64,000 bases of DNA from Adineta ricciae (lineage: Eukaryota; Rotifera; Eurotatoria; Adinetida; Adinetidae). Of this stretch, positions 15,852 through 60,584 are shown one piece after another. The stretch is from assembly GCA_905250025.1 (NCBI GenBank), contig CAJNOJ010000078.1:1-64000 (forward strand). The letters run 5' to 3'. The first letter of the stretch is position 1. Each line of letters opens with the position of its first letter. The notes under the pieces are model-generated. The model was not told the origin of the DNA. It saw nothing but the letters and a program-made list of their open reading frames with translations, and searched no databases. Position numbers and translations under genes: made by a program.

Positions 15852-15974
15852 TAATCATTATGATAATCATATCGTCACACAGAGATATTTTAGTTAGCTT
15901 GTGTATAATTGCTTCATTTCTTTTATTGTTATATGGTATGATTATATATAATGATTCCTTAATATCGAACAACA
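15852..15974 (+). repeat. Inverted-repeat arm 1 (start of GT92 gene)
   Basis: This 123-bp stretch, covering the GT92 start codon and signal anchor, recurs exactly as reverse complement at 17048-17170, immediately before the N at 17171. Confidence 0.95.
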
Positions 15975-17505: not shown

Positions 17506-17751
17506 AACCAGAAACATTCTTCAAACATATTATCCTTTATGGAAGAAATTGCAAGACATAAACTAATTCTATTGTACGAGTAAGATGTAACTAGTTTGAT
17601 CTTTTTATGGAACTATCGTGCAAAACTAATAATTTGGAGGTTTTATACAAATGAAAAGAAAATTTTTATTTCACTAAATCTGAGTTTTATTTCACTTTAT
17701 TTTATCTTCATCTCTAGATTATTTTAATGATTGAAAATTAACAACAGAAAA

Positions 17752-18708
17752 ATGTTGGTAAAGACAGAGATAGAAATGTTAGTTTTCTCTGTTATAATTT
17801 TGATGTGTTTCTCCATAATATATATGCAAGCAGAAAAGAATTATGTTTTCAGATTATGGAAAAATTACAGCCAACTCAAAAGTTCCAAACAATGTATTAT
17901 TGTTTTACGTGAACGTAGTGGCCGACTTGGTAATCGTTTATTTATGTTTGCTTCTGCTTATGGTTTATCACGTAATCGCTCATGCCAGTTGTACATAGCT
18001 TCAGATATTATTAAAGAACTCAATCAATCATTTGATATAAACCTTCCTAATCTATTATTAAAATCAAATGTCAATAGTACGAATTCTTTTAAGAAAATAT
18101 ATAATCATTGTTCATTTTATTCGGACCTTTATTATTCGAATTATTCTTATTCAATAGAACTATCTGGTTTTTGGCAAGTATATAGATATTTTATTGATTA
18201 TCAAGAAGAAGTTAAACAACACTTACGATTTAAACAATCCATTTTAGATCGAGCGAATCAATTTTTCAACAAAGCTATCAACAGAAACATATCAACTGTT
18301 ATAGGTATTCATATTCGTCGAAGTGATTTTCTACTTGTTCGACGTGTTTCATCAGATAATTACATATTAAATGCTATGTCATATTTTGAAACAAAATATG
18401 GTTTAGTAACATTTGTTATAGTATCAGATGACAAATCATATTGTCAGAAATCATTCGGTCATAAAAGTAATGTTTTAATAACACCAAATACCTTTCAAGC
18501 AATTGATGACTTAGCTATATTAACTTTATGTGATAATCTTATCCTTACAGTTGGTACATTTGGATGGTGGGGTGGATTTCTTTTACGTAATAAAATAGGT
18601 GAAGTAATAACTGATTCCAAACCAGATCATTCTCCTCTCGATGTCAATTGTCGACGAGAAGATTATTTTCCACCTCGGTTTTCATTTTTGAATAAAACAA
18701 TCTCATAG
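17752..18708 (+). CDS. Glycosyltransferase family 11, alpha-1,2-fucosyltransferase-like
   Basis: Predicted Golgi enzyme transferring fucose from GDP-fucose to galactose in alpha-1,2 linkage. The chosen ATG at 17752 gives 318 residues, with an N-terminal signal anchor at about residues 8-26. GT11 signatures are clear: GRLGNRLFMFASAYGLS near residue 60, the GDP-fucose-binding motif IGIHIRRSDF in the middle, and near the C-terminus VIVSDDKSY and TVGTFGWWGGFL. Length and motif order fit a complete enzyme. There are no introns. It lies 246 bp downstream of the GT92 gene and about 50 bp upstream of the signal anchor of the HtrL-like gene. The acceptor glycan cannot be told from sequence. Confidence 0.9.
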   Translation: MLVKTEIEMLVFSVIILMCFSIIYMQAEKNYVFRLWKNYSQLKSSKQCIIVLRERSGRLGNRLFMFASAYGLSRNRSCQLYIASDIIKELNQSFDINLPNLLLKSNVNSTNSFKKIYNHCSFYSDLYYSNYSYSIELSGFWQVYRYFIDYQEEVKQHLRFKQSILDRANQFFNKAINRNISTVIGIHIRRSDFLLVRRVSSDNYILNAMSYFETKYGLVTFVIVSDDKSYCQKSFGHKSNVLITPNTFQAIDDLAILTLCDNLILTVGTFGWWGGFLLRNKIGEVITDSKPDHSPLDVNCRREDYFPPRFSFLNKTIS

Positions 18709-18758
18709 ATTTTCATTCATAATCTATTTGCCATTTTTTTCAGAACATGATTTGTAAT

Positions 18759-18905
18759 ATGAATTATCGTTACTATAGAAATACTTATCTAGTTATCCTA
18801 TTCATTATTTTTGGGAACTTTTTCATCTATACAATTTGGTGTAATCCATATTTATTCTCTTATTATAATTTTTTTCAAAGGAATCGAACCATGAGAAAAC
18901 AATAA
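18759..18905 (+). CDS. Signal-anchor ORF, probably the out-of-frame N-terminus of the HtrL-like gene
   Basis: ATG 18759 opens 48 codons (MNYRYYRNTYLVILFIIFGN at the start) with one strong membrane segment, the usual N-terminus of the neighbouring enzymes. It stops at 18905, while the HtrL domain runs in a second frame already open at about 18880. A single missing base, most easily in the T7 run near 18873-18879, would put both in one frame. This may be an assembly indel, a true frameshift mutation, or a short intron I cannot define. Confidence 0.5.
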   Translation: MNYRYYRNTYLVILFIIFGNFFIYTIWCNPYLFSYYNFFQRNRTMRKQ

Positions 18906-20008
18906 CAATTGTTACTGCTTATTTTCCCTTTCCAAAAGCTAAACACAATCAATCTAATTATTTATCGTGGTTAGAAAATCTGTTCTCATTCTGTCAATCA
19001 CCAATGGTTATATTTACTACTCCTGAATTCTATCCTATTCTTTATAGATTAAGAAAAAATGGATCACTACCATCGTATTTCATTCTCGATTATAAAACTC
19101 CTCTAGAAATGCCTCCTATTGCATCCCTTGTATCTACTTTCGAACAACAACATCAAACCGATCCAGAACGNCAATCTAATTATTTATCGTGGTTAGAAAA
19201 TCTGTTCTCATTCTGTCAATCACCAATGGTTATATTTACTACTCCTGAATTCTATCCTATTCTTTATAGATTAAGAAAAAATGGATCACTACCATCATAT
19301 TTCATTCTCGATTATAAAACTCCGCTAGAAATGCCTCCTATTGCATCCCTTGTATCTACTTTCGAACAACAACATCAAACCGATCCAGAACGTGCTTATC
19401 ATTCCGTCGATCTTTATGCCGTATGGTGTGCTAAATCATTTATGTTGAATCGCACTGTTGAACTCAATCCGTTTCACACAGTTTTTTTTCTTTATATGGA
19501 TGCTGGAGCATTTCGATTGCCAAAGTATCGATTTCAAGCATGGCCAGATGTATCTACTCTCAGTAATATATTAAATACGAATCGATTTCTTCTCGGTATG
19601 ATTGCTCGACTTCCCAATCGATTTTGTTCTTCTAAATATCAAATAACCGATGGTCCAATCAAAATTGATTTAATCGAAGGTACTTTTATGGGTGGTTCAA
19701 TTGATACTGTTCGTTGGTGGACGTCGGCCTATTATGAAATAATTAATGATTATCGTGTAAGAAAATTTTTTATTGGCAAAGATCAATATATAATGAATAC
19801 AATTGCATTAGTTTATTCAACACGTATTAACGTGCTTCTGCCATTTCGAATCTCGTGTGACAATGTCTGGTTTGCTTTTGGTCCACTTTTTGCGAGCAAA
19901 CCTGAAAGAAAGAACTTGTCGTTCTCGCATGATTGCCAAGAACAGAAATTGTCTGAAATTGTTATTCCTTTCGATAAAATTTGTGCGAATATCGAAAATA
20001 TTTCATAA
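18881..20008 (+). CDS. HtrL/YibB-family protein, with duplicated segment from an assembly join
   Basis: Resembles the HtrL/YibB family (Pfam PF09612), known mainly from bacterial surface-polysaccharide loci and nematodes; its biochemical function is not established. Typical pieces: ITIVTAYFPFPKAKH at the start, YLSWLENLFSFCQSPMVIFT, ERAYHSVDLYAVWCAKSFML, the conserved FFLYMDAGAFRLP, then IEGTFMGGSIDTVRWW and KDQYIMNTI. The frame passes the N at 19171 because the 221-bp duplicated segment plus N equals 74 codons, so the apparent protein contains a 74-residue repeat that is surely artificial. No introns. The N-terminal signal anchor sits in another frame (18759-18905). The position between two glycosyltransferases suggests a role in glycan synthesis, but that is inference. 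Confidence 0.75.
   Translation, partial: ESNHEKTITIVTAYFPFPKAKHNQSNYLSWLENLFSFCQSPMVIFTTPEFYPILYRLRKNGSLPSYFILDYKTPLEMPPIASLVSTFEQQHQTDPEXQSNYLSWLENLFSFCQSPMVIFTTPEFYPILYRLRKNGSLPSYFILDYKTPLEMPPIASLVSTFEQQHQTDPERAYHSVDLYAVWCAKSFMLNRTVELNPFHTVFFLYMDAGAFRLPKYRFQAWPDVSTLSNILNTNRFLLGMIARLPNRFCSSKYQITDGPIKIDLIEGTFMGGSIDTVRWWTSAYYEIINDYRVRKFFIGKDQYIMNTIALVYSTRINVLLPFRISCDNVWFAFGPLFASKPERKNLSFSHDCQEQKLSEIVIPFDKICANIENIS
18950..19170 (+). repeat. 221-bp direct repeat, left copy
   Basis: Matches 19172-19392 except for two substitutions (a G/A and a T/G). The copies abut the single N at 19171, so they look like two allelic contig ends left unmerged. Confidence 0.95.
19171..19171. other. Single-N scaffold join in HtrL-like gene
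   Basis: Separates two near-identical 221-bp segments. Confidence 0.95.
19172..19392 (+). repeat. 221-bp direct repeat, right copy
   Basis: Second copy of 18950-19170; after it the gene continues uniquely. Confidence 0.95.
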
Positions 20009-20091
20009 TCTTGAGAATGACGATATGCTCGGGTACCAGCACTTATATTCTTACAAATTATTCTTTTTGCTTTATATTTTAGATTTCATTG

Positions 20092-21180
20092 ATGGGAACA
20101 CATCTCAGAAATTGTTTATTTTTTATAGTAGCTGTCATATTGACATCAGTTGGTATTCATTTTCTTCATCCATCTGTGATAATTCAGTATAAAACGGAAA
20201 GATGTATTTACAACGTTACTCCCGTTCTTCGTCCAATATGTCAGGCGAACGAACGAATTATATGCGATAAACTTGACGCAGTAACAACTTATTCTCCATG
20301 TTTTCCATCAACTTTACTTGATTCGAAAATAGCTTGTCATGATAGCTATTCTTGTAATGAACAATCGAAGGAAATATCAACAAATCCATCCTTAGACGTC
20401 TCTCGAAAAGCATTCTTTAGTGCATTATATACCGATAACAATTTCTTAGAAGGAGCATTATTGTTAGGCTATACTATCAAGAAATATCATCCACATTATC
20501 AAATGTACATAATGCACTTTGAAAATGTATTGAGTAATCGAACACTTTGTTCGTTACGACAAGTAGGTTGGATTCCTAGAATAGTACGTAATATTTCGCC
20601 ACCATTGCAAGGAACTTGGCTTCATTTTATCAATCAATTTACAAAAATAACATTATGGAATATGACCGAATTCGATTCTATTATCTATTTAGATATTGAC
20701 ACTCTCGTATTAAATGATATTTCACATTTACATGAACTAGTAACTGACCCATCTCGTACAAGATTTGAATTTGCCGCTGTTGCTGATAATTGGCACGGAA
20801 AATTTGCCTATCATTTCAATGCTGGAGTACTTGTTTTACATCCATCTACAAGTGTATTTAATGAACTTATACGAACAATGAGTTTACCCAATAATTATCA
20901 TCCAACAATGGCTGAACAGGCATTTCTTAATGCTTTCTTTCAGCTTCGATATTTACAATTACCACTTATTTATAATGTAAACTTAGCGATGTATTCATCC
21001 TATTCTGATCTTTGGCAAAGAATGCAACGCGATTTTAGAGTTGTTCATTTTACACTCGTCAAACCATTTCTAAAACAATCGAATAATGCATATGATGTTC
21101 CATTGAAATTATATCAAGAAGTTTTGAACGAATATTTGAAAACTAAGATACCTGATCAATTGAAAACGAAATGCATTTGA
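20092..21180 (+). CDS. Glycosyltransferase family 8 (glycogenin/LARGE-like fold)
   Basis: Predicted type II membrane glycosyltransferase of 362 residues using a nucleotide sugar and Mn2+. ATG 20092 is followed by a signal anchor (residues ~4-22, FFIVAVILTSVGIHFLH). The luminal stem has several cysteines. The GT8 catalytic domain begins near residue 104 (KAFFSALYTDNNFLEGALLL), continues with FTKITLWNMTEFDSIIYLDI and its DxD motif (DIDTLVLND), then HFNAGVLVLHPS, AEQAFLNAFF, and ends with VVHFTLVKPF, the family's C-terminal H-box. Complete and intronless. Glycogenin itself lacks a membrane anchor, so a Golgi role is more likely; donor and acceptor are unknown. The 3' end is duplicated after the N at 21267. 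Confidence 0.88.
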   Translation: MGTHLRNCLFFIVAVILTSVGIHFLHPSVIIQYKTERCIYNVTPVLRPICQANERIICDKLDAVTTYSPCFPSTLLDSKIACHDSYSCNEQSKEISTNPSLDVSRKAFFSALYTDNNFLEGALLLGYTIKKYHPHYQMYIMHFENVLSNRTLCSLRQVGWIPRIVRNISPPLQGTWLHFINQFTKITLWNMTEFDSIIYLDIDTLVLNDISHLHELVTDPSRTRFEFAAVADNWHGKFAYHFNAGVLVLHPSTSVFNELIRTMSLPNNYHPTMAEQAFLNAFFQLRYLQLPLIYNVNLAMYSSYSDLWQRMQRDFRVVHFTLVKPFLKQSNNAYDVPLKLYQEVLNEYLKTKIPDQLKTKCI

Positions 21181-27582: not shown

Positions 27583-30198
27583 TCAGATTTTAAGTTGAAT
27601 TATTGGTCCCTTCCTATTTCGAGATATGTAGTTCCATATAGTCATTCGTTTTTTCCAAATAGATAGTAATACCGATAAGAGACAGATCACTGCGAACACT
27701 AAGAATAAGCCAACCATTGATTCGACTTCCATTGCAGTAGATATTTCAGATGGTGCAGGACAATCTTTTGCATCAACCCATTTTGATTTTAGTCGATCTA
27801 ATTGACCAGCTTCTCTCAACGCCAAGATATTGATATCCAATTCTTGTTTATATATCCATTGTTTTGGTGTGACAATGCTCATAACGCCTTTGTTAAATTC
27901 TTCGCCAGCTAATGTTAAACTACAGTAAACGTTATTAGTAATATATTCAGCAACACCAACGTCCATAAATGTTAAGTCAATACTACCATTCAACAAACAT
28001 GCATACGTTTCGGGTTTGTTTTTCAGCGCATAATAATTTCGACGGCCATTTGACACTTCTCGTAAGTAAAAGTCTTCACTAGCTGAGCCAACACGAATAC
28101 CAATACGATTAAAGGGAATTTTTCCGCTCTTAACATCGTCGAGTCCCGATATGATTGAGCGCGATCGGGATAAGGTCAAATCCGAAGCTAAATTTGCAGT
28201 ATACGATACGACTAATACCACACTTAACAAGTATAGACCAGCAGTTATTAGACGTCCAGAACCTGTTCTCGCTTCGAAATCTGCGCCATATCCAACGATA
28301 TTACCGAATGAATACCATACACTCATTGTCAGCAAGGAAATGGTAGATCGTTGTTGCAAGATTTCATTATCTGATCTTTCTAATATGGCGAACAGGACAC
28401 CGGCGACGATCATAGCAGCTAATGCCATTAGCCATAGGTTACTTGAAAATGGCTTTAAGAATGATAGGAAGTCAACGTTAGTTTCGCTATTTCTTGCCAT
28501 AACAATTCGCAGAGAATTGTCGTATATAGCATTGCTGAAATCAACAATTTCTCTGCGAGAAGATGTAACTGTCACATCACCAACGACAATATCGTATAGA
28601 CCGGTTGCTACTGCTTGAATAAGTGTTGTATAGCTAAAATTTGTCGGTGCTATTTGAATATCCGGAATAAATCCCATTCGATCTTGCAGAAGGGCGATAA
28701 GATCAGGCATGTAACCAGTAACTGTTTGTTTCGGTCGTCCTAATTCATCGGTTACTGTAGTAAGAATTGTAAACGGCGCTGATACGATGACGCCAATTCT
28801 TAAATGTACGCCATTCAGTTTAGCAATGCCAGAGGGGATAGTTAATGTCCCGTCCGGCCAGATGATTGGACTCGCCCCAGCATACCTTTCCCAGCCATTC
28901 GCATCCGAATAGCCCAAGACTGGTACGAAATTGATACCACCAGCATACGTATCGACATTCTGTGCGTAATAGTAACTTCCATTAATCCGATCTGTTGCAC
29001 CAGAATCAAATTTCAGCAAACCAGATACACCCAGAAAACTCATATTATTGATTGTATCAAGAAACGAACGCGAGTTGAGGAAACGCCGATCAAAACATAC
29101 CGATGGATTTGTAAGTGAAACACATGATGACAAATTATTGCTATTTGCTGAACAAAATTTGCCTAATGATTGAATCAACAACCAAGCAGCATCAAACGCA
29201 AATAATGCATAATAATTGATTTCAGATGATGCAGGATATGTTTCTGGCTCATACGTTTTCCATAGGTCATAAGCAGCATTTAACAAAGTTCTATTCACGG
29301 ATACGCCGACCATTGTTGCCACGACAGGCTCGATTGTTAACATGCCAATTAATTTTGAATAGGAAGATTGATTGAAAGAAGCAAATGAAATACTTGTACT
29401 CAGTATCCATGTAAATCGCGGACCGAGTATATCGTGAAACAGAGCTTTTTGTAGAATGATCTCTGTAACAGACGACGTTGCCCATAGTAATATAATTCGT
29501 GACGAACTGTTGCTTAAGGTATTTTTTAAATCACCTTTAAAATCGCCTGAACCGATGTCATATACAATTGTATTTTCGATCGACAAGCCGTTCGCAAGGA
29601 ATGCTTCTTCGATCACTTTTGCACCGCCCGTTCCAAATGCGTCGTTTTGATAGACAATGTCGCTTTTATTCCAGTTAAATCGTATGAACAGTTTTACTAT
29701 AGCCAAAGCAGCTGAATAATCCGAAGGAATGGTACGATATAAAGTAGGATATACTTTTCTACTGGACAGTTCAGGAGCAGTTGCGGCATACGATACGACT
29801 GGTATACCTATTTTAGCAGCAAAATCAGCAACTATTGTAGTTTCTCGAGATAATGCGGGACCGACGATACCAACAATATTGGAATCAGAAAGTATATGAC
29901 AAGTACTACTAAGTGCATCGATGCCAATACCGCCAGTGAGTGATGTTCGCCAGTTGATAAGTTCTCCATCAATCCGTATGTTATACTGCTGAGAAAGTAA
30001 AACTGCTGCTTTGAACATTGCACGTGCTTGAATAGTGAGCGTGCTAGGGTTAGTGGCGTTTGCGGCATCTGAAAAAAGGCCTAGTAGTTGAACGCTGGAG
30101 GAATCCAGCGATGGCCAATCGGCTTTTACATTGTGTATATCGAGGTGAGATCCACATACAAAGAGTAAAAACAAATATCGCACATTAAAAAGCTGCAT
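27583..30198 (-). CDS. Ionotropic glutamate receptor-like channel with K+-type VGYG pore signature
   Basis: Intronless gene of 871 residues. Signal peptide (1-27), amino-terminal ANF/periplasmic-binding domain (~35-420), ligand-binding S1 (~465-580) with GDVTVTSSRREIVDFS, where the arginine before RE corresponds to the glutamate-binding Arg of iGluRs. M1 lies at ~588-606. The pore loop reads YSFGNIVGYGADF with VGYG at residues 635-638 (bases 28285-28296). M3 carries SYTANLASDLT (the iGluR SYTANLAAF motif), S2 follows (~685-810; FMDVGVAEY supplies the acidic ligand contact), and M4 is at ~827-848. Animal iGluRs have Q/R-site pores without GYG; bacterial GluR0 and Adineta AvGluR1 have a potassium-selective filter. 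By that analogy this receptor should be K+-selective (inference). It is transcribed towards the triple-repeat gene; their ends are 160 bp apart. Confidence 0.93.
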   Translation of the reverse strand: MQLFNVRYLFLLFVCGSHLDIHNVKADWPSLDSSSVQLLGLFSDAANATNPSTLTIQARAMFKAAVLLSQQYNIRIDGELINWRTSLTGGIGIDALSSTCHILSDSNIVGIVGPALSRETTIVADFAAKIGIPVVSYAATAPELSSRKVYPTLYRTIPSDYSAALAIVKLFIRFNWNKSDIVYQNDAFGTGGAKVIEEAFLANGLSIENTIVYDIGSGDFKGDLKNTLSNSSSRIILLWATSSVTEIILQKALFHDILGPRFTWILSTSISFASFNQSSYSKLIGMLTIEPVVATMVGVSVNRTLLNAAYDLWKTYEPETYPASSEINYYALFAFDAAWLLIQSLGKFCSANSNNLSSCVSLTNPSVCFDRRFLNSRSFLDTINNMSFLGVSGLLKFDSGATDRINGSYYYAQNVDTYAGGINFVPVLGYSDANGWERYAGASPIIWPDGTLTIPSGIAKLNGVHLRIGVIVSAPFTILTTVTDELGRPKQTVTGYMPDLIALLQDRMGFIPDIQIAPTNFSYTTLIQAVATGLYDIVVGDVTVTSSRREIVDFSNAIYDNSLRIVMARNSETNVDFLSFLKPFSSNLWLMALAAMIVAGVLFAILERSDNEILQQRSTISLLTMSVWYSFGNIVGYGADFEARTGSGRLITAGLYLLSVVLVVSYTANLASDLTLSRSRSIISGLDDVKSGKIPFNRIGIRVGSASEDFYLREVSNGRRNYYALKNKPETYACLLNGSIDLTFMDVGVAEYITNNVYCSLTLAGEEFNKGVMSIVTPKQWIYKQELDINILALREAGQLDRLKSKWVDAKDCPAPSEISTAMEVESMVGLFLVFAVICLLSVLLSIWKKRMTIWNYISRNRKGPIIQLKI

Positions 30199-32550
30199 TT
30201 TTATTTCTTCGAGTAGATATTACCAAAAAATACCCAGCTAAAATGAAAAAAAATTTAGATGAAAGTAGTCCCGCTAACTTTTTCTATCAAAAAGATGTAT
30301 TTGAGCTAGATCGGGATAGCGGAACGAAGCAGCATACTTTTTTTTATTGTATCGCGGAAAAGATCTCTCGACACTTTATTGTTAATTGTTTTGTTACTGA
30401 CGCTTAGAAAGAACTCGCTCCAAACTGAACAACGAAAATACCTTTCTATTTGAGTACAATATTCATTAACAGTGGCTATGTTGATGGGTCATTCGACTAT
30501 CTTCTGTGACGGATAGACATGTATCTAAGACAGTTATGAGTATTCATTCATTTGATACGGTTTTTCTAGTATCTTTTCTCAGGGGACTGCTCTACGTGAA
30601 TCTAGCCTAATACTACAGATCCAGAGAAGATAGCTTTAAAGCACATTTACTTCTGCATGGTTTTTATGTATGAGATAGTACAGAACTGTACTATTCTATT
30701 TCTGACCCCTCTATATGAATGTCCGACACATCCGAAAATACCAACCATTGATAAAACGCTGAGAGAATTGTTCTAAACAGAATAGAAGTGAACTGACGTG
30801 CTCGTTTCCACTAGAAGCCTTTCTTCAATATTCTCCCAGGCGAATGTATGAAGCATAAATTCTGATAAAAATGTTGTTAGCAACTAACTGAAATTAGAAA
30901 AGTTTTTTTTCCATTTATCCCTGGCGTCTGCTTTTTCCATTTAGTAACTACTTCAATAGTATATACGTCATTTTGTTCTGAATCGAAATACCGCATTATT
31001 CTGCGACAAGATTTCCAAGTGGAAACACTTATAAAGGTGTTAAAGCTAATTAAAATAGCACGCTCGTCCCAGAACATCGCTGTGCTATAGATCTTTGAGC
31101 ATAATATTCTTGAAGAAATGAAATGCCTATAACTGTTAATCTGAAACTCACTAGTTTAAATACTCCCAGTATGAAACAATAACAAGTTATTCTAGATATA
31201 CGTATACTTTGAATCAAATGTTTTGAACTTCTTTGTTCAATATATCACGCGGATGCTTTGTGTTTGAATGATTAGTCTACAGAGTATAATTCACACTGAT
31301 CTTATTATTAATTTTCTCTTACACTTGAGAAAAAAGTATTCTTTGAGCAAAGAAGAGATCTTCTTCGTGTTTCCTGAGCAAAATCAAGTAGTGATAACAA
31401 TTATTTTTGAGTATGTTGCTTTATCAGAGGATTTAATACCCCAACTTGCCCTTGTTCTTGCTCGTAAACAAACGGCATTTACGAAATGGCACGCTGCCGT
31501 TGTATCAATAGCATAGACGAAAATCACTGTTGGATTCATTTGACATACACAGTTACGTAATAATGTCTCATTAGAAGGATACAATTCATACCCTAGCAAG
31601 ACGCATTTCACAATTCGACCCGAGGGAATATATGATGCACATTGGTATTTTATGAAAGTTTGTCAAGCTATTAGACATTTTAGTATTTGTAAATAACTGT
31701 TAATGCTAATAAATGTCAGTTTGGATCCTTCAAAGCAGATAGTCCAATACTAAATATGTATCGAGAACTTTAACACTTTCTGCTTCGATACTCGTGTGTC
31801 ATATATCTTTACTGCTATGGTCGACAAACATGTCAAATGAATTAGTCCGATAAATCCTATTACTCAGAAATGCTAAGAACTCTCGATAGATCACTGAGTA
31901 AGGAAATTCAACAATTCAAGTTCGAATACCTTAGTGTTAGTACATAGAGAATCAATCGATTCCATTCTTGTTCTATATCACATAAGTTATTAAGTTCATT
32001 CACACTTGACGCACCAGCTTGTATTCAAGTAGCATTGCTGACATTCTAATTCAAACTGTTACATTGTTATAATGAAAGAGCATGTAGCAACGAGCGATAT
32101 GACACCAATTTGAATTGTATGGAATTGGAAATGATTTTCTTATGGAGTTTCTCCAGTAACTCAAAATATGACTTGCACTCGTTTTCATAATAAAAGAAAT
32201 TGGTAACCGTCAATGTGCATATTAATTAAGGATAGGTGGCGGTAGCGGCTAGTATATTATCTGTGAAGCCATCTGTAAGTCGAAACAAATTTTAATGAAA
32301 TAGCTAAAAAAATTACTGTTTGATATGAAAAAAATAAATGAGTAGGAAAAATACAAAATATTTTTTGAAAACATTTTGTTTGTTGACTTCGGTTGCTCAC
32401 CTACCATCGATATGGCTCCTTTGATCATCACCCATCGACAAGATGAAAGAAATAAGCAATACACCCACACGATTCTTAACAAAAGATGATGATGGGTGAA
32501 TAAATCTTCTGTATAATTTTTCTTTCAGACAATATCCATTTCAAATCCAT
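30199..32550. other. Intergenic spacer, nothing recognised
   Basis: About 2.35 kb upstream of both the minus-strand receptor and the plus-strand MED8 gene. Short open frames at 31268-31516 (+) and 31384-31611 (-) overlap each other and show no motif or start context. No repeats or RNA genes seen. Promoters for the two flanking genes should lie here. Confidence 0.4.
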
Positions 32551-33309
32551 ATGGATCGTTCAGCAAGCACAACAGCTACAACAATGCATAGGTCACCAGA
32601 ATACGATAAGCTACAGCAAATTTTAGATAAAGTACGGGAAGTGAAATTAGCTCTCGCTGGTTTCTTCATCGAATACGAGCAAGGTCAACCATCGTGGCCA
32701 ACAATTCTTGACCAAATGAATGTTCTGTCATCACAAGTCACAACATTACGTGGCCTAGTGCGAAATCTCTTGCCAACATTGCGCACAAATTCCATCATAC
32801 CTATGTGTTTATCACCTGAAGCTGATGCCACTGTTGAACAACTAACTGAGAGACGTTTATCTGTGTTCAATCATGATTTCATGCCTCAATTGTTGCGAAC
32901 AAAAAATCTGCCAGAAATCGATGAACGCGAACGATTATTAAACACAAATTCTAACAGTAGCCTTTCCGGAAGTGGATTCGGTCGTCCAATGTTGAACCCC
33001 AATGAGATTCAAATGCGTGTACAAGAATTAAATGCGGCTCTACATAGTACAAGTGATATCCTTCAAGGAACGAAAGTCGCCACGGATAAAACTGAAAAGC
33101 AATTTGATTTGCAACGGTTCACTAATCCATCCGATACGAAACAATTGCTTGAAGCAATGAATTATGGCACAGCACTGAAAACACCTGATACATCGACATC
33201 TCTCACACGTAATGAACAAGCAAACTTAAATCAACAGATGTCGAATCAACCACAACGCTCTCAAGTTCCATCCCTACGAATAAAAACAGTCTCCAAAGCC
33301 AATCGCTAG
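32551..33309 (+). CDS. MED8: Mediator complex subunit 8
   Basis: Subunit of the head module of Mediator, which links transcription factors to RNA polymerase II in the nucleus. Single exon, 252 residues, close to the ~268 of human MED8. The family pattern is clear over residues 15-120: ILDKVREVKLALAGFFIEYE, SWPTILDQMNVLSSQVTTLR, IIPMCLSPEAD, LTERRLSVFNHDFMPQLLRT and LPEIDERERLL. The rest is helical with a polar tail. An intron in the 5' UTR is possible (TTTCAG at 32523-32528). It ends 226 bp before the GSK3 start on the same strand, so the two may share local regulation, though each would have its own transcript. Confidence 0.92.
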   Translation: MDRSASTTATTMHRSPEYDKLQQILDKVREVKLALAGFFIEYEQGQPSWPTILDQMNVLSSQVTTLRGLVRNLLPTLRTNSIIPMCLSPEADATVEQLTERRLSVFNHDFMPQLLRTKNLPEIDERERLLNTNSNSSLSGSGFGRPMLNPNEIQMRVQELNAALHSTSDILQGTKVATDKTEKQFDLQRFTNPSDTKQLLEAMNYGTALKTPDTSTSLTRNEQANLNQQMSNQPQRSQVPSLRIKTVSKANR

Positions 33310-43467: not shown

Positions 43468-45174
43468 ATGTGTAGCGAAGCAGCTAAAGTTCTCCTTGCT
43501 GAAACATGGACTGAAGACGTCGATCCAACGGGTTGGTGGATGAGTGAAAAGCTTGACGGCGTTCGGTATAGAATTGATTTGAAAAAAAAACAGTACAAGC
43601 AGCGGAGGTTTTCTTTTGTAGGGCATACTGGAATGGCAAGAATTTTTACTCACGACAAGGAAATCTTTTCCATACACCTGATTTCTTCAAAGCTGCACTT
43701 CCCAAAGTTCCACTCGATGGTGAAATATGGTAGATTTCTGCTTTTTTCACACCCATGGAGTTCTACGTTTTGTTGTTCTTTCAGGTGCGGTCGAGGTTTG
43801 TTTCAAAAATGTGTTAGCATCGTGAAAAAACAAGCGAATAAAGTCGTGCCTGATGATTACAAACTCTTAACATATTTGATTTTCGATGCTCCAACTCACG
43901 GAGGGAAATATGAAGATCGGGTCAAATGGTTACAAGCAAATATTCCACAGGATGACGATAAATGCTATGCGACAGTCGTTGGTATTAAAAAATGTGAAGG
44001 TATCGCACAATTGAAACAGTACTTGGCCGATATCAATAAGGCTGGTGGAGAAGGTATCATGCTTCGAAAACCAGGTAGTCTGTATGAACATAAACGATCG
44101 ACTACGTTACTTAAAGTGAAAACATTTTATGATGAAGGTAAATAATGTTAGTTTTTGATGAAGATAGTTTTTACTTAAGCAAGTATTCATTCTTTTTTAG
44201 AAGCACTCGTCATTGGTCATAAACCGAGCAAAAGTTTAATTGGTATGACCGGTGCTCTGGAATGTGAATTACCTAATGGAAAACGATTTGATGTGGGTAG
44301 TGGACTTAATATGGATCAACGGCGAAAACCGCCGAAAATTGGCTCAGTAATTACATTCAAATTTCAAGAATTATCCAACAATGGTCATCCACGATTTCCC
44401 ACCTTTCTGCGTGTTCGTACCGATCTCTCCTGGAACGATGTACTTGAAGCAGCTAAAACCAAAAAGCCGATGAGTATTCAGCAAAAGGTCATTCCATCGG
44501 CCAAACTATCGAAACAACACTCCGTCTTGTTTTCCGTTATTCCATCACGTGATGCGAACAGTGGCAAGAAAATCGTAACATCGGACGACGAAGATGAAGA
44601 AGCAGCAGCTTCATCATCATCATCATCGACAAAAACTAGTGACACTCGACCGATGTGTAAATTCGGAGCAAAATGCTATCGAACAAATGCTGACCATCTC
44701 AAACAATTTCAGCATCCATCATCCACTCCTAAGCCTACAAAAACGGCAGAACCGGAATCCACCACGAAACCACCGTGTACATTCGGTGCTAAGTGCTATC
44801 GAACGAGTTCAATTCATTTAGCTACTTATTCTCATCCAGCGAAGACCGATGCAAAGGAAGCGGACGAAGAAGAACCCCTCGATACTCGCGAACTGATTGA
44901 AGCCGAAGAGCCTGTTTCACCAACAACAATCGATAGTTTATTAGTCAAAGATAAAAACAAAGGTCTGACATTTGATGACGATATGGACGATGATAACGAT
45001 GATAATCAAAATATGATCACGCGTCCGAAAGCAGAATGGATCAATCTGGAGAACAAAGTCAAAGAGCAAAGTAAACGTTTGGCTTATCTTGAAGAGATGT
45101 TCAAAACGACAAAACGATCCAACTCGACTACTGACGATAATCAAGAGAGCACGAAACGTGTAAAAACCGAATGA
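43468..45174 (+). CDS. LigE-type ATP-dependent DNA ligase with two C-terminal PBZ zinc fingers
   Basis: Seals DNA nicks using ATP; the core is of the small bacterial LigE type rather than eukaryotic Lig1/3/4. Exons 43468-43565, 43622-43729, 43785-44137, 44201-45174, in phase, 510 residues. Motif I SEKLDGVRAYW (nucleophile Lys28), SRQGNLFHTPDFF, motif III LDGEIW followed by CGRGLF, YLIFDAP, motif IV GGEGIMLRKP, motif V TTLLKVK, then a small OB domain (~195-275). Bacterial LigE carries a periplasmic signal; none is seen here. Two PBZ fingers follow near residues 337-400: CKFGAKCYRTNADHLKQFQH and CTFGAKCYRTSSIHLATYSH, the fold that binds poly(ADP-ribose) in APLF. The tail is acidic, then coiled coil, with a basic TKRVKTE end that may act as nuclear signal. 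This implies recruitment to PARylated breaks (inference). Confidence 0.93.
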
Positions 45175-45633: not shown

Positions 45634-48600
45634 TCATACCGTTTGTTTGTCATCGGTTGTTGGCCTATGTATGATATCACTGTGACTTGTTGGTATTGTT
45701 GTAGTATGTGAATCATCGTTTAATAGATCATTTGTTGAACCTTGTTCTTGTACAGGTGTTAAACTGTTCGTTTTCCGTCTTCCCAAAATTCGATCATCTG
45801 TGTCGAACGGGACGTTTAAATCGAAGCGATTTGTTGATGATTCACTTATAGTGGAATGAAGTACGACATTGTGTTGTACCGATGCAGATGATGGGCGATG
45901 TTGTATCACATTCGTTGTATTTATATTTACGATATGACCAGTCGATCCTGATGCACGTGGTGTTAAGGAAAGTGGTAATTGAAAATCACCGAGTTCTTCA
46001 TCTAATTCTTCTTCATTCGTCGTCGCATTGGTATTGTTCATACGATCCTACAAAGAAAATCGATGATTTTATCTTTCGTCTTTCGAGTCGACTGGCATTG
46101 ATTGAACAAGAATTATTGTTCAAATGATAGAGATCACCTTTATGAGTGTAACAAAAGAAAAAAAAGCAATCAATCTTTAATCCAGGTCATGAGTTCCTAT
46201 TCAACCAGATAATAGAAAACGCGACATAATAGAATCAAACAAAGATCGATTCTTTCATTCAATAATTCGTCGTAGCTTATCAGCGTACACAAAGAACATC
46301 GATATATTTAGAAATAAGTTAATTCGAGCTCAATCAAACGCCACTCTGGTCTCGTTGAGTCAAAGTACATTTAAATATCCTGACGTGTAAAGAATTTTGA
46401 AAAATCTCAATTGTATCGGGGAAAAAAACGTACCGCGTTATTTTTTATCGTGCTCTTCTTTCTTCGTCGTACTCCGCAACACCACCATTTTCGACGATTT
46501 AGAATGAATTGTCTAGCAGGGGAACCTAGTCGAGCGATGCCAGTTGTTGGATGCGCACCAGCAACAGCATTCGCGCCACCACCCATTAATGCATCTGGAC
46601 CCATTTCAACAAATTCGCGATCCTGAAAAAAGAAACGATAACATAGAAGGTTGATAGGATGTGCTTTTTGCTTTCATACAGTAGTTAATTCTAAACAACG
46701 TAGTAAATGATGATGCTGCAATTCGAATGGATTAACAATATTTTTATCAACAGGTATATCAGGATCGTCAAGATACTGTTCATGACGTCGTTTGGCCGCA
46801 ACAAATGCATTACTGGTTGCATTACGTGCTAAGCGTATTCGTGTTTGACGTGCTTTTCGTTGTGCTTTCATTTTATCTGCTCGCTGACTTTGATGGTAAA
46901 TTCTACTGAAATTCGATACAATAACAGGAACAGGAAGAGCGATTACCAAGACACCGCTCAAACTGCAAACACCGCCGACAATTTTACCCGCCCTAAACAC
47001 ATGAGCCGTGATTAATTGTCTCTCTATCATGAGACTATATGTCGACTTACCAAGTTTTGGGTACTATATCACCGTACCTAAACACATAGTGAGAAAAATG
47101 AATCAATTTGCATAGCTGTAGAATCTTTTTTCTCCAAATCGCACACGATATAATTTCAAACATATTCAACTCAATGTGGCAAAAAACAATTAATTACGTT
47201 CTTTACAACAAAAAATCGGATCAATTATATTTTCCACATGCTCAATTCTCAATAGGGATAAAGCTGTTATTCTCTGTAGTATATCATATATAATAGAATA
47301 AACATTACAATCTGTATACATATAGATATATATATATTAAATTATTTAGTTCACACGTAATTCTAGCCCGAGGCGTTGACAGGATCAGTTTTGTTTACAT
47401 TTATTTGAGAATTGTTATTTTTTAATTAGTCGATGAAACTATCCAGCCTCAATCGAATCTGTCTATGCCATGTAATCTAATAAGATACGAGTGGGATCGA
47501 AGTACGATCGCATATCGACCGAATATGAATTGTGTAACAATAATGTAAGAAAACATGTGAGATGTATGTTCTCGCACCTTTCCTGTTTTCCTCGTCGAAC
47601 GCAAAATGTAACAAGTGATGAGAGCTGATGAATGTAATTATAGATTGACTTGTTGCAAATCATGTATTCTGAATGATTCGGATCAATGATTTTCCCATGT
47701 ACAGAAGTCTAGGGAGCTGAATAAATCTTCCTTGATAGACTTTGACATTATTAATGAATGTCAAAAAAGTAATCATAATAGTATATTTTGTTGTTTTTTC
47801 TTGGTCCAGACTTATTTATCTACCTGTTCAACTCCGTAATAGAATCAATCATTTCTGATTCTGTACTTTTCTCTGTTTATATATGACCTTTTTCTCATCT
47901 ACGTATCTCATCGTATGTCGTGCATAGTCAGCGAATAAGATCATGTATCCCTGGGAATCTTCTTATGCACTTCTATAATTATCTTCATATTTGTTCTTAC
48001 CCAAGTGTTGTCATTGTAACAATAGTATACCAAAATGCAGCTGGTATCGATGTAAATTTCGTATGCACAACACTTTTTTCCGCATAATACATAACAGTAG
48101 CAAATATGATAATGGCCATCGTCAATGAAAATAGGAGAAAGCCAAGTTCACTAGCACAACTTTTTAATGTATAACCTAATACTCTCAAACCTTGGCTATG
48201 TCGAGAAAATTTAAAGATACGAAATACACGAAATACACGAAGAGTAACAAATGCGCCGCTGACTTCGCCTTTCTGATGCATGAATAATCCAATATAATAC
48301 GGCATAATTGCAACCACATCAATAACAGACTAAATAGGGGAGAAAAAAAAGGAAACAGATTTTTACCAAATAACTTCTAATCAGTTTACCATAACAGATC
48401 GAATAAATTTCAATCGATCCGGTGCAGCGTAAAGTCGAAGAAAATATTCAACGGTAAATATCATAACACAAGCCGTGTCGAGACAGAAGAATTGCCGTGA
48501 GAAACGTTCTCCACATGTTCTCGCGTAACCTGTCTCAGGATCAGTTCCACACGAAACTGTATCTAAGACATTAGCAATAACACTGACGGCAATGAAAAAT

Positions 48601-49199
48601 CCTGTCACATAATAAAAGACAGATGCCATCGTTGACACTTGAGGATTTTCAAATGCACGCCACATTGTTTCACGTATCGATTGAGGTTTAGGTTGCGCTT
48701 TGTCTTCATCTTCGTGTAAACGATCATCAATCAATCTTTCGTTGTTTTCGCGTTTCCGATCTCGATAATCTTCGTAGCAACAATCACCAATAATATCAGG
48801 TAAGATCCCGAAGAATGCTAATTCCTCATCATATGCTGCAATGCATTCATGCTTTGGGTAATGTAATTTGCCTGTGCGGTAGAAATTTAAAATAACTCGA
48901 AAGACGTCAGGATCGCGATCGAAGAAATATTCACGTGTGTCTTCATCGTAGAAGAATTCCTTTTCGTTCGAGCCTAGTAATGAATCAGGATATTTTTCTA
49001 ATGTTGAACGCCAACATTCAAATCGACGACCACTAACATTAATAATGATTTTCTCATCGCAACGACGATCGTTGCCACTTGGCGATGCACCACTTGTTGG
49101 AACACGAAATGGAGGTGGTGGCAATGGATTTTTTGCTAATGGTACCCAACCAATAGCTGCCGCACGAGCGAATGGAAGCCATGCAGCTACACTGGCCAT
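45634..49199 (-). CDS. Voltage-gated potassium channel, Shal/Kv4 type
   Basis: Forms A-type K+ channels in neuronal and muscle membranes. Six exons: 49199-48390, 48329-48001, 47077-47051, 46992-46680, 46622-46434, 46047-45634; 693 residues. The N-terminus [20 protein letters not shown] is the Kv4 hallmark (ball and KChIP-binding segment). T1 domain at ~45-145 with the Zn site HECIAAY...GDCC. S1-S3 follow, then the voltage sensor [14 protein letters not shown] at ~300-313. Pore TMTTLGYGD has its glycine-tyrosine-glycine at 380-382, then S6 [10 protein letters not shown]. The filter is carried by a 27-nt micro-exon. The C-terminus has a basic [11 protein letters not shown] stretch and an S/T-rich tail. 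Whether it is the only Kv4 copy cannot be told. Confidence 0.95.
47078..48000 (-). other. Long intron before the pore micro-exon of Kv4
   Basis: A 923-bp intron, long for this genome, splitting the selectivity-filter glycine codon. AT-rich, with an AT run near 47325-47340. No alternative pore exon was recognised on the minus strand. Confidence 0.6.
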
Positions 49200-52100
49200 T
49201 TTATGTCTGTAGCTGCTTGTTTATCCTGAATAATAAAAAGATATGTGTATATCTATCTATCTATATATACATGAGTGTATTGGATGGGAAACCTTTTATT
49301 GCTTTACTTTGTCATTATTTTGTTTTATAGCAATGTTAATAACAACCAGTAAAGCAAAAAATGTTTCAATTACGAAACCAATATGACTGAATCGACGCGA
49401 TTAGACAATATGGTGGTATATGAGATGCTTTTAGATTAATGTAGATTGATATAAATCTTATACATGTATAATAAGATCTAATTTTTCCTGTTTACATTAA
49501 ACATATGTTCATTATATTGATGTCTGTATGTGTCTTCATCATCTCATTTTCTTATCAAAGTCTTTTCTATTTTTTTGCTTTCCTTCTAACTAGAGACGTC
49601 TTTTTTCTTCCCTTCTTCTTCTTCTTTGTTGATGCCGAACAGTTTTTGACGAGAGACTAATACTCATCCTACAGAAACTAACAAGGAAAAAACGCTCCGA
49701 ACGATCATTGGGATCATGGCAAAACGCTGACAAGTGCTAATTAACAATACAAACCTACTGTGCGCCTATGCGCACCTCACGACTTGATTTGTAACAATGT
49801 ATTATATGTGTGCCGTTGATTTGATTGTTATTACAAAACATTAAATTCCATGAGAGAACAGATGTTCGTCGTCGATCAACATAATATGAATGTATCTTAA
49901 AAAGAGAAAAAAGCGACAAAAAAAGAGTCGGTGTATGTGCATACACGTTCGTATTTGTATCGTGTGAATTGGATGGTAGTAGACGGACAATAGAATAAGG
50001 AAGAAAAAGCAAACCGAAGAAGGAAAAAAGAAGAAGAAGAATGGAAAGACGAGGAATTCTGCCACCACCCTGGTGAGTGTCAATTCGAAGAGACATAACG
50101 ACTGCTAGCAACGACATACATGGAAGGAAAAACGAAGACGAAGCGAGATAGAGAACGCTAAGGAGAAGAGGAGCTGACGTGAGAGAGGAAGAGAGACAGA
50201 GAGAGAGCGGCAAAGAACTCGTTGTAAATAGAAGAAAAACGACAAGATATCTCAATCAACGTTGCGCTTGTGTATGCATGTGCATGTATATATCGTGCGT
50301 CGAACAAACGCTATGAAGTAGAACTAAAGAGAACGTTCTCTGTGTGTGTTGTGCTCCATTATGATTGTTTTCCGGTAGCCTCATTTTTCCCGTACTGTCG
50401 TTACTGCGACGACTAACATTGCCGACATCTCGTCAAGCACGACAACCTTCAAAACACATGTGCCAACTTTCTTTCTTTGTTTCTCGTCGGCGAATGCTCA
50501 ACCAGAACAACAAGCAAACGAACTGATTTTTCTTGTTCTTTTCCTTATTTTTCCTTCTATTCATTCGGTATTTTTTGGTGTTTGTGTGTGTGTTCCTTTC
50601 TCCTTTATTCCACACACTCACCATCAACTAAAGTCGAGTGACAATAATGCCTTGTTGTCCTTAAGGATATTTTTGATTATTGAATCGACATTGTGACATT
50701 AGATTTAAGAGAATGTTGAAAATAATATCGACACGAACTCCATAAGATAATTATAACTATCATTAAGAATCAAAATCATTGAATGATTACATTGCATGAA
50801 AATATATGTTAACAAGAAAAGTCAAAAGAAACGAAGCATTACCATCTGTTCGCTAGTAGAATAACTTCAGCCTTTCTTTCTCCTTTCGGTTCTTGGAAGA
50901 AGAAAAAAACTTTGTTTTCGTCAACGAAAGAACAAGAAAATGATTATAAACGACTTTAAAGATGATGGCCGCGACATAATATATTTAGACAGAAAATATC
51001 TTGATTGGTGTTTTAATTATGTGACGAAAGTGCTTTAGTTAAGCTGAGTATTGATGTGCCCTCGAAACAGTAGTGACAGCCATGATAACAACGATAACAA
51101 ACACTATACCATCTGAGAATAACAACAACAGCGAGAACAAGAATGACACTACGCTTTCTGCAAACAGTTGGATGATCTACTGGTACTTGGATGTCATTAT
51201 ATGAATCTCCATCATTGGTCTGTTCTCTATCGGTTCTGTTTTGCTTTTATGCCATTCCAGATGACTGCATGGGTGAATGAATGTACATGTACGACTTGGC
51301 TGCTACACACCGAGTGCTTAGCGAAGTCTGTTATGGCCTTGATAGTTTACTATCTTTTGATTTCTTCATCGTCGCACGAGACGATTTATCAATCAATCAA
51401 TCATAAACATGCAACTCTTGCCTTTAGCATTGTCAGCATTTTACTTGTTCGCTATGTCACCATTATTGATGATCATCGCGCGAGCGTTCTCGAGCAATCT
51501 CACACACACACACGCAGGCAGCTAAAGTCAACAGAAAAAAAAACAAACGGAACAAAATGAACAGTCAATTATTCGATTAATCATCATGTTCTTTTCTTCT
51601 CTATTCTGCTGATTGTTATTTATCGACGTCAGCAAAACACAATAAGATAAAAGAAATTGGTCACAAGTGACCAACTAAACCTCGAAATCTCTTGAGAATT
51701 TTCTGTTTACAATTAAGCTGTCTATTTACTGGACAAAAATATTAACATAATATCATCAGCCGATCATATATCTATCATCGCTGACGATGAAGAATAGCAC
51801 AAGCAATCAATCTCTTGACATGATACCTTTCATGTTCGAAAATCTTTGCCATGTCAGTATTAATACAAGTGCTAAATAATTAGTTTACTTTCGAATTAAG
51901 AAAACGGATGTCAAGCAAAAAAGGATTACATTGTGTTCTTAACAGATATGAAGGAGACTTACTTAGCTCTATTTCTTTGCTAGCTTTTTTTTCTTCTCTC
52001 TTGTCTTTGCCTATGTGTAGACGTCGAGAAACGTCAACACTGCTTCTCGTCTTATGCTCGCTCGGTCGTTCGTTGCCGGATTTTTTTCTATTACATTATT

Positions 52101-59202: not shown

Positions 59203-60584
59203 ATGACAGTAAAACACGGATTTTATTATAACAAAAACCATGATGATCATTTGTACATGGATGAAACATCTATTAAGCAAATCATTGAACGTTTATCTTC
59301 ACCACCGACTCCATTTGTTCTCTATAGTTTAAACCAATTTTCTTATAATATTCGCACTTATCAGCATGCACTTGCCGAGCTCGCACCAATACGTACTCGA
59401 CTATCGTATTCGATGAAAGCGAACTACAATCCTCACTTATTGACAATCCTGAAATCATCTCGGGTGATGTTAACTACAGTGAGTGGCGGAGAAATGCAGT
59501 TAGCATTGTCCAGTGGATTTGAAGTAAATTCGAACGATTAGTTTGGCGATAGGTTTGTGTTTATTTCTTGTAGCCATCGTCAATTATCTATAATGGTAAT
59601 GGAAAAACCGATGAAAGTATTCAAATGGCTGTTGATAGTGGTGTTTTACTCAATGTAGATAGTTTGTTCGATCTTGAAGTTATCTTTCAATACGCAAGAA
59701 AATTAAATAAGATTGCCAATGTGCTTATACGTGTAAATCCTGATCTAAGCGATTCGCATGTTCATGCTTATAACACAACTGCATCGAAAACGAGTAAATT
59801 TGGAACGAGCATCGATGAATTGGAGCCGCTATTTACAAAGATCGAGGAAAATCAAGATAAATGGATTCGTTTGTACGGTTTTCATTGTCATCTAGGCTCG
59901 ACCATATCGAATACACAGGTCATTGTCACATGCGTAGACAAATTAGTGGCACTGTTTGATACAAAACGTTTTCCTCATCTTCGGTTTCTTAATATCGGTG
60001 GTGGATTAAATATTGATTATAAACGATACGCAAATCGTACAAGGGAACAACCCGAAGAGCCAATTGCAATTCCTACGATTGAAGAATATATTCAAGCAAT
60101 AAAAGCACCATTACAACCCATTGCTAAGTTAGTCGAGTTAATCGTTGAACCTGGTCGAAGTTTAATTGCAGATGCCTGCGTATTAATAACACGTGTCTTA
60201 GGACAAAAACAAACAGGCTCAATACGACAATTAGTTGTTGATGCTTCAATGACTGAATGCATTCGGCCTGCATTATATCAAGCCTATCATCATATTGATA
60301 CGATTGTTTCATCGACAACAGATGAACATACTCTATATGATATCGTAGGACCTGTTTGCGAAAGTGGAGATTTTCTTGGTAAACAACGCTATCTACCAAA
60401 AGCATTGGAACGCGGAGATTTTCTAGCAGTATTCGATGTTGGTGCTTATTGCTCAAGTATGAGCTCGAATTACAATATGCGGCCACGTCCTGCTGAATAT
60501 GCGTTAGATGAACATGAACAGATAAAAGTCTTACGAAAGAGAGAAACTAATGAAGATCTTCTTCGAACCTATTGTGTCGATTAG
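59203..60584 (+). CDS. lysA: Diaminopimelate decarboxylase (LysA-like)
   Basis: PLP enzyme that decarboxylates meso-diaminopimelate to lysine, the last step of the bacterial, plant and algal pathway, which animals lack. Exons 59203-59523 and 59574-60584, in phase across a 50-bp intron; 443 residues, normal for the family. PLP lysine in LSYSMKANYNPHLL; then VSGGEMQLALSSGFEPSS, YGFHCHLGSTI, NIGGGLNIDY, phosphate and substrate contacts in VEPGRSLIADA, the catalytic Cys-Glu of GPVCESGDFLGK, and MSSNYNMRPRPAEYAL near the end. This last string separates DAP decarboxylases from ornithine/arginine decarboxylases. All key residues are present, so it should be active on DAP or a similar substrate. It probably came by horizontal transfer and gained an intron (inference). 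No other lysine-pathway gene is in the window. Confidence 0.9.

Follow-up and report, generated by a model that had tools for sequence, protein, structure and literature searches.

How did an animal come to carry a LigE-type DNA ligase with two poly(ADP-ribose)-binding PBZ fingers at its C terminus, and were the fingers joined to the ligase before or after it reached bdelloid rotifers? The question is raised by a gene in the first 64,000 nucleotides (the window) of contig CAJNOJ010000078.1, here C78, of the 130-Mb Adineta ricciae assembly. The fusion is not new as such, since it has been published for A. vaga, where the gene was described as LigK, with its core domains followed by one (copy A) or two (copy B) PBZ domains, and where copy B was induced on recovery from desiccation (PMC6264785, Hecox-Lea and Mark Welch 2018). 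The same gene was later identified as LigE and as horizontally acquired (PMC10665377, Nicolas et al. 2023). According to the available text of that paper, LigE is strongly X-ray-induced in A. vaga and A. ricciae (the A. ricciae orthologue by qPCR), the A. vaga LigE-B protein is nuclear, its ligase activity is shown by immunodepletion, LigE accounts for about 35% of the ligation activity of extracts from irradiated A. vaga, and LigE raises the radiotolerance of human cells. A later transcriptome study agrees on the induction (PMC10809525). The closest relative in the trees of PMC10665377 is Planoprotostelium and a non-metazoan eukaryotic donor is suggested there; in its available text only Thecamonas and Mortierella are named as other LigEs with C-terminal PBZ domains, and a later acquisition of PBZ during metazoan evolution is proposed.

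The gene clearly exemplifies an enzyme that an animal obtained by horizontal transfer and that is linked to its tolerance of radiation and desiccation. A first-pass annotation, made from the letters of the window, had inferred a bdelloid host and mentioned a report of LigE in A. vaga; the host is indeed a bdelloid, A. ricciae, and the report exists (PMC10665377), together with the earlier PMC6264785. These were the only papers joining PBZ with this ligase in the literature searched, which lay outside figures, supplements and most subscription journals, and neither term occurs in the available part of PMC13407396. As far as we have searched, two points go beyond the published text: a fusion that would predate rotifers, and a copy A that is not simply one-fingered.

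One gene encodes a LigE core and two PBZ fingers

The gene lies at 43468-45174 on the plus strand and translates into 510 residues without an internal stop, its four exons (Table 1) being separated by three GT-AG introns of 56, 55 and 63 bp. The whole OB match and both PBZ fingers fall inside exon 4 alone, which is uninterrupted to the stop codon, and the fusion of ligase and PBZ is therefore independent of the predicted splicing and certain at the DNA level. The possibility that the PBZs belong to a separate gene was rejected, as the OB fold and both fingers share one exon. The first-pass annotation had described a LigE-type core, two PBZ fingers of a defined spacing and an acidic tail with a coil and a basic end, all in a single four-exon gene, and this description was borne out by the gene model and by Pfam and PDB matches, with the coil present as a prediction.

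Pfam searches identified the ATP-dependent ligase adenylation domain (PF01068, E 2e-10) and the OB domain PF14743 (E 4.2e-25), and the C-terminal family of Lig1/3/4 is absent from the five Pfam families listed at E<=1. The best PDB matches of the core are the ligases 4d05 (8.1e-52), 8u6x (3.6e-48) and 6gdr (1.4e-45), which we take to be bacterial LigEs, followed by a chlorella-virus ligase at 6.6e-13. A core of the Lig1/3/4 type was rejected on the strength of PF14743 and of LigE structures as best matches. The adenylation motifs KxDGxR, DGE, FDAP, EG(I/L)MLR and KxK are all present, and K28, D30, G31, R33, D65-E67, F102, E158, K179 and K181 are invariant among 14 aligned sequences. By eye, the protein has no hydrophobic N terminus and the core starts at about residue 8; a periplasmic signal is a feature of many bacterial LigEs and does not define the eukaryotic members. 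PF14743 has been termed a LigE-specific OB domain, and grouping of the core with LigE, not Lig1/3/4, has been reported for A. vaga (PMC10665377).

The PBZ family PF10283 matches in two stretches (E 1.4e-23), at 82.9 bits against a cut-off of 22.7, a score on which a chance zinc-finger match was rejected. Residues 332-399 match the PBZ pair of APLF (PDB 2kqb, 3.2e-9), each finger has zinc ligands spaced C-x5-C-x6-H-x5-H, and the CYR signature is retained in both.

Table 1 Features of the LigE-PBZ gene in the window
Feature	Position	Strand	Remarks
Exon 1	43468-43565	+	residues 1-33, EKLDGVR nucleotidyltransferase motif (Lys28); Arg33 codon split by intron
Exon 2	43622-43729	+	up to LDGEIW motif
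Exon 3	43785-44137	+	motifs IFDAP, GGEGIMLR, LLKVK
Exon 4	44201-45174	+	residues 187-510: OB fold, linker, two PBZ fingers, acidic tail, coil, basic end, stop
Linker peptide AKLSKQHSVLFSVIPSRD	44500-44553	+	residues 287-304; kept in most eukaryotic C-PBZ LigEs examined, absent from the bacterial set
PBZ finger 1	44656-44715	+	residues 339-358
PBZ finger 2	44776-44835	+	residues 379-398
C-terminal predicted coil	45013-45120	+	residues 458-493, coil by eye; profile-recognisable in three protist-type PBZ ligases
Basic C-terminal end KRVKTE	45154-45171	+	A. vaga LigE-B is nuclear (PMC10665377)

Judged by its sequence, the window gene is LigE copy B of A. ricciae. A second B copy on contig C392, with exons 96.8% identical to those of the window gene and a translation that equals exactly a 507-residue A. 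ricciae database protein, is probably its other allele. Copy A lies on contig C28; over its first 300 residues, which were compared, it is identical to P0016, the A-type protein of A. ricciae. All three GT-AG pairs are retained in the C392 copy and in copy A. Comparison of the two B copies gave a dN/dS of 0.043, with 0.020 for the core and 0.081 for the tail, so core and tail are both under constraint; with both B copies intact, a pseudogene was rejected.

Several other features of the window were recorded. Glycosyltransferase-like frames (GT92, GT11, GT8) run through 15845-21180, and within this stretch a frame at 18869-20008 carries about 74 residues twice, in exact head-to-tail order, with the junction at an N (19171); this has the look of an assembly gap with duplication. 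A single open frame of 878 aa at 27583-30219 on the minus strand resembles a glutamate-receptor-like channel, Mediator subunit 8 lies at 32500-33309, the N terminus of a Shal-type potassium channel at 48381-49220 (minus strand), and a frame resembling PLP-dependent Orn/DAP/Arg decarboxylases at 59574-60584.

Copies A and B differ at one aromatic residue of finger 2

The available text of PMC10665377 gives copy A a single PBZ, consistently across all bdelloid genes, and that of PMC6264785 holds that the difference between A and B is probably not degeneration. We sorted 46 bdelloid-like sequences by their C-terminal ends into 29 B-type and 16 A-type, with P0091 not typable; the 46 are database clusters, not independent events, and 8 of the 11 altered A-type sequences described below are without a name. 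In the B-type, an aromatic residue follows the second cysteine of finger 2 in 29/29 (25 Tyr, 4 Phe). Eleven of the 16 A-type sequences have a finger 2 whose four zinc ligands are all present and in which this position is occupied by Thr (6), Asn (3), Gln (1) or Ser (1), and Pfam finds two PBZ stretches in the A-type proteins P0008, P0010 and P0011. Four A-type sequences, including those of A. vaga and A. ricciae, are one-fingered, and one, a short metagenome protein, is fingerless. A PBZ-like finger with Asn or Thr in place of the aromatic, like finger 2 of copy A, was also observed near the C terminus of P0026, P0032 and P0062, and an incomplete version of it in P0036.

The aromatic after the second cysteine corresponds to the adenine contact Y386/Y428 of APLF (PMC6264785, legend). 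On the simplest reading of these sequences, loss of the PAR contact in copy A would have preceded loss of the finger, an order that predicts weaker PAR binding by A. Because copy A raised radiotolerance in human cells more than copy B (PMC10665377), a reading in which two fingers are better fits poorly. The A/B difference in one finger-2 aromatic provides a natural experiment on tandem PBZs in a ligase.

These residues also bear on whether the fingers read PAR at all, or mainly recruit partners or serve nuclease-like end processing. Possible 3'-end processing was suggested in PMC6264785 and a docking role in PMC10665377; however, both fingers of LigE-B keep the CYR signature, an ADP-ribose contact in APLF (PMC6264785, legend), and aromatics kept throughout the B-type and changed in 11/16 of the A-type are what would be expected if the PAR contact matters in B. 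We consider a role other than PAR reading quite unlikely.

The core nests among ligases with C-terminal PBZ domains

Relatives were collected with a core-only query (candidates of about 280-890 aa), so that the PBZs were unable to raise the match score. Of the 28 non-bdelloid matches scoring above P0093, the first WGR-bearing match in this ranking, 25 carry PF10283 and three (P0063, P0064 and P0080) are PBZ-less. The PBZ-bearing matches include the amoebozoans Planoprotostelium and Balamuthia, and the nearest named non-rotifer relatives by core score are two amoebozoans. With a shorter query, restricted to proteins of about 150-470 aa and blind to long ones, PBZ was found in only 3/5 non-bdelloid matches above P0093. 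Many relatives are metagenome or transcriptome proteins, taken as eukaryotic by their domains and tree position.

After 38/228 proteins with partial cores had been dropped, a maximum-likelihood tree was built from 96 core rows, comprising the window gene, 77/190 proteins and the 18/80 GTDB loci with >=90% of the core. The 77 proteins are 15/15 bdelloid, 30/30 with C-terminal PBZ (C-PBZ) outside Mortierellomycota, 7/26 from Mortierellomycota, 2 with N-terminal PBZ (N-PBZ) and 23/117 others. Groups follow precomputed Pfam labels, since a loose motif count missed the PBZ in some PF10283-labelled proteins (for example P0033 and P0047). In this tree the bdelloid rows fall together as a single clade (100/100) nested among C-PBZ proteins, and within it eight rows of B copies with two canonical PBZs, including the window gene, group together (99/91). 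All 18 GTDB bacteria fall in a 34-row group (99/83) together with 14 PBZ-less and 2 N-PBZ rows; Chytriomyces is also in this group, which holds no bdelloid and no C-PBZ row. Constraining bdelloids to group with bacteria costs 417 log-likelihood units and is rejected (AU p 2.98e-51). The sister group of the bdelloids is weakly supported (91/92 and 90/59), and eight PBZ-less rows lie on the bdelloid side, of which P0064, probably incomplete, adjoins the bdelloids. As the tree is unrooted, we infer the direction of transfer from this nesting.

A number of observations on the relatives stand apart from the ancestry of the bdelloid gene. Many PBZ-less LigE relatives carry WGR (P0093, P0113, P0120, P0178, P0224 and others), two of them named as Gemmataceae and Pirellulales. 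WGR is a domain of PARPs, and in P0093 it lies C-terminal to the core, where eukaryotic LigEs have PBZ; WGR-LigE is possibly a parallel coupling of LigE to PARP-pathway domains. In the tree, the N-PBZ LigEs P0110 and P0118 are placed with the bacteria and apart from the C-PBZ LigEs, which suggests that PBZ joined LigE more than once. In P0077, LigE and PBZ are followed by a stretch that looks FHA-like by eye and recalls the domain set of APLF. The database name '3-ketoacyl-CoA synthase 17' on P0049 and P0068, both clear LigE-PBZ proteins, is a probable misannotation, and the amphipod label of P0068 may be contamination. PBZ has also been reported on amoebozoan Ku70 (PMC11936186).

A conserved linker, and in some relatives a coil, accompany the core

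The region between core and fingers supplied a second line of evidence. A linker HMM was built from 13 bdelloid linkers (P0002 and P0020 left out) and searched against core-trimmed tails, in which masking covered only fingers of the C-x-R form; 18/80 non-bdelloid tree rows with tails <25 residues were excluded, leaving 62 tails as targets. It finds 23/30 non-bdelloid C-PBZ proteins at E<=4.8e-8 and misses 7/30. None of the 13 bacterial tails and none of the seven Mortierellomycota tails (best 0.43) was found, and two of 12 PBZ-less proteins are weakly reached (P0064 at 2.5e-4 and P0164 at 1.4e-3). Shuffled tails gave 0/1240 under 0.01, with a best value of 0.35. A coil HMM recognises P0032 (7.7e-7), P0036 (3.6e-5) and P0026 (4.5e-5), against a best decoy of 0.93. 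A whole-tail HMM in which A and B copies were combined did not separate relatives from decoys (best relative 0.057 versus best decoy 0.02).

At the centre of the linker (Table 1) is the short peptide LK[KR]QHS[IL]LFS, a loose form of which is present in 28/30 C-PBZ proteins, 15/15 bdelloids, 7/7 Mortierellomycota and 5/23 PBZ-less proteins, and in 0/18 bacteria, among them 13 with a tail of sufficient length. Since shuffled tails give on average no more than about 0.1 match per group, this conservation is real. The final Ser is absent in 6/7 Mortierellomycota. As a lead only, the peptide, with a basic patch followed by hydrophobic-FS, could by analogy be an internal XLF-like Ku-binding motif; the Ku-binding peptides of XLF, WRN and MRI that serve as the comparison set are typically C-terminal, unlike the internal linker (PMC4831024). 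If the linker binds Ku, the ligase would read Ku as well as PAR. That PBZ-LigE might represent a nuclear ligase lineage that is common among protists and fungi and has largely escaped notice, targeted by PBZ and a Ku motif and acquired whole by bdelloids, we regard as conceivable but unlikely.

The first-pass annotation had proposed that a transferred bacterial-type ligase gained its eukaryotic domains afterwards. Searched against bacteria and eukaryotes and placed in a tree, the core has mostly C-PBZ LigEs as its closest kin, and a grouping with bacteria is rejected. As many of these relatives, found by the core alone, also share the linker, the ligase most likely reached bdelloids already joined to its PBZs; on present sequences, the combination of core, linker and PBZs is most likely older than bdelloids, and a gain of PBZ after transfer is unsupported.

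The competing account, in which bdelloids took up a PBZ-less LigE, bacterial or other, and fused the PBZs themselves, draws on a catalytic family that is largely bacterial (PMC10665377), on LigE-type proteins as the best-matched solved structures and on PBZ being a eukaryotic domain, and PMC10665377 likewise proposes that PBZ was acquired later in metazoan evolution. Bdelloids nonetheless nest among C-PBZ proteins with the bacterial grouping rejected, and the homologous linker, with the coil in three cases, is found in non-rotifer proteins, which makes fusion within bdelloids very unlikely. Vertical descent from a gene of ancestral animals, with loss in most animals and without any transfer, is likewise very unlikely: a few other animals do have LigE, three of them with N-terminal PBZ (PMC10665377), but their PBZ is on the opposite side, the A. 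vaga copies are phylogenetically distinct from theirs (PMC6264785), the two N-PBZ proteins of the 96-row tree fall on the bacterial side, and a monogonont rotifer reportedly lacks the gene (PMC10665377).

A proposed role at PARP-marked breaks

Our preferred reading, to which we give a probability of roughly 80%, is that LigE-B is a PAR-recruited nick-sealing ligase that was acquired already fused from a eukaryote, and that copy A later lost the finger-2 contact. In this mechanism PARPs would lay poly(ADP-ribose) at breaks after damage, and the tandem PBZs, as predicted from the PBZ family, would bind it. A flexible conserved linker would tether the adenylation and OB core to the two fingers, and the compact ligase, concentrated at breaks, could close nicks at a late stage of BER or SSB/DSB repair. 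Core, linker, PBZs and coil would have been acquired as one protein from a eukaryote before the ancestral tetraploidy; copy B would then have kept both fingers intact, and in copy A the PAR-contacting aromatic of finger 2 would have disappeared, as would the entire finger in some species. We infer PAR binding and PAR-dependent recruitment, and a role for the ligase at PARP-marked breaks is plausible. Matches to the PARP catalytic domain number 125 stretches (not genes) in the genome, 7 of them under the family cut-off, and PBZ matches number 34, of which 5 lie in LigE copies. If the fusion came ready-made, the unit would have been adapted to PAR signalling in eukaryotes before its transfer, and its function in an animal nucleus would be easier to understand.

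Comparison with known systems

The LigEs of PDB entries 4d05, 8u6x and 6gdr, presumably all from bacteria, have the same two-domain core as LigE-B, without PBZ or the eukaryotic linker. The tandem PBZ of APLF (2kqb, 2kuo) has two fingers of similar spacing with the CYR signature, as in LigE-B; APLF, however, is not a ligase, and the first aromatic of each LigE-B finger is Phe (CKF, CTF), where the legend in PMC6264785 gives Tyr.

Mortierellomycota LigEs such as P0085 resemble LigE-B in having a core followed by a C-terminal PBZ, but they carry a single finger near the very end, share only the short peptide with the bdelloid linker and form a separate clade (100/100). The M. verticillata LigE gene is radiation-induced (PMC10665377). 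In Planoprotostelium P0036, Balamuthia P0049, P0026, P0032 and P0046 the cores are 60-66% identical, the linkers are found by the bdelloid profile in 5/5 cases and the PBZs lie at the same place, with a significant coil match in P0026, P0032 and P0036. They differ in detail, P0026 and P0032 having three PBZ stretches compared with two in A. ricciae LigE-B, and the P0036 gene model continuing into a peroxidase domain, possibly through a gene-model fusion.

The closest counterpart is the published A. vaga gene. The present data are at odds with its description on two points, the list of other C-PBZ LigEs (Thecamonas and/or Mortierella) and the one-fingered copy A. For copy B itself we saw no structural difference: AvLigE-B, ohnolog B of 'LigK', and its A. 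ricciae orthologue are the same gene, with an N-terminal LigE core and two C-terminal PBZs.
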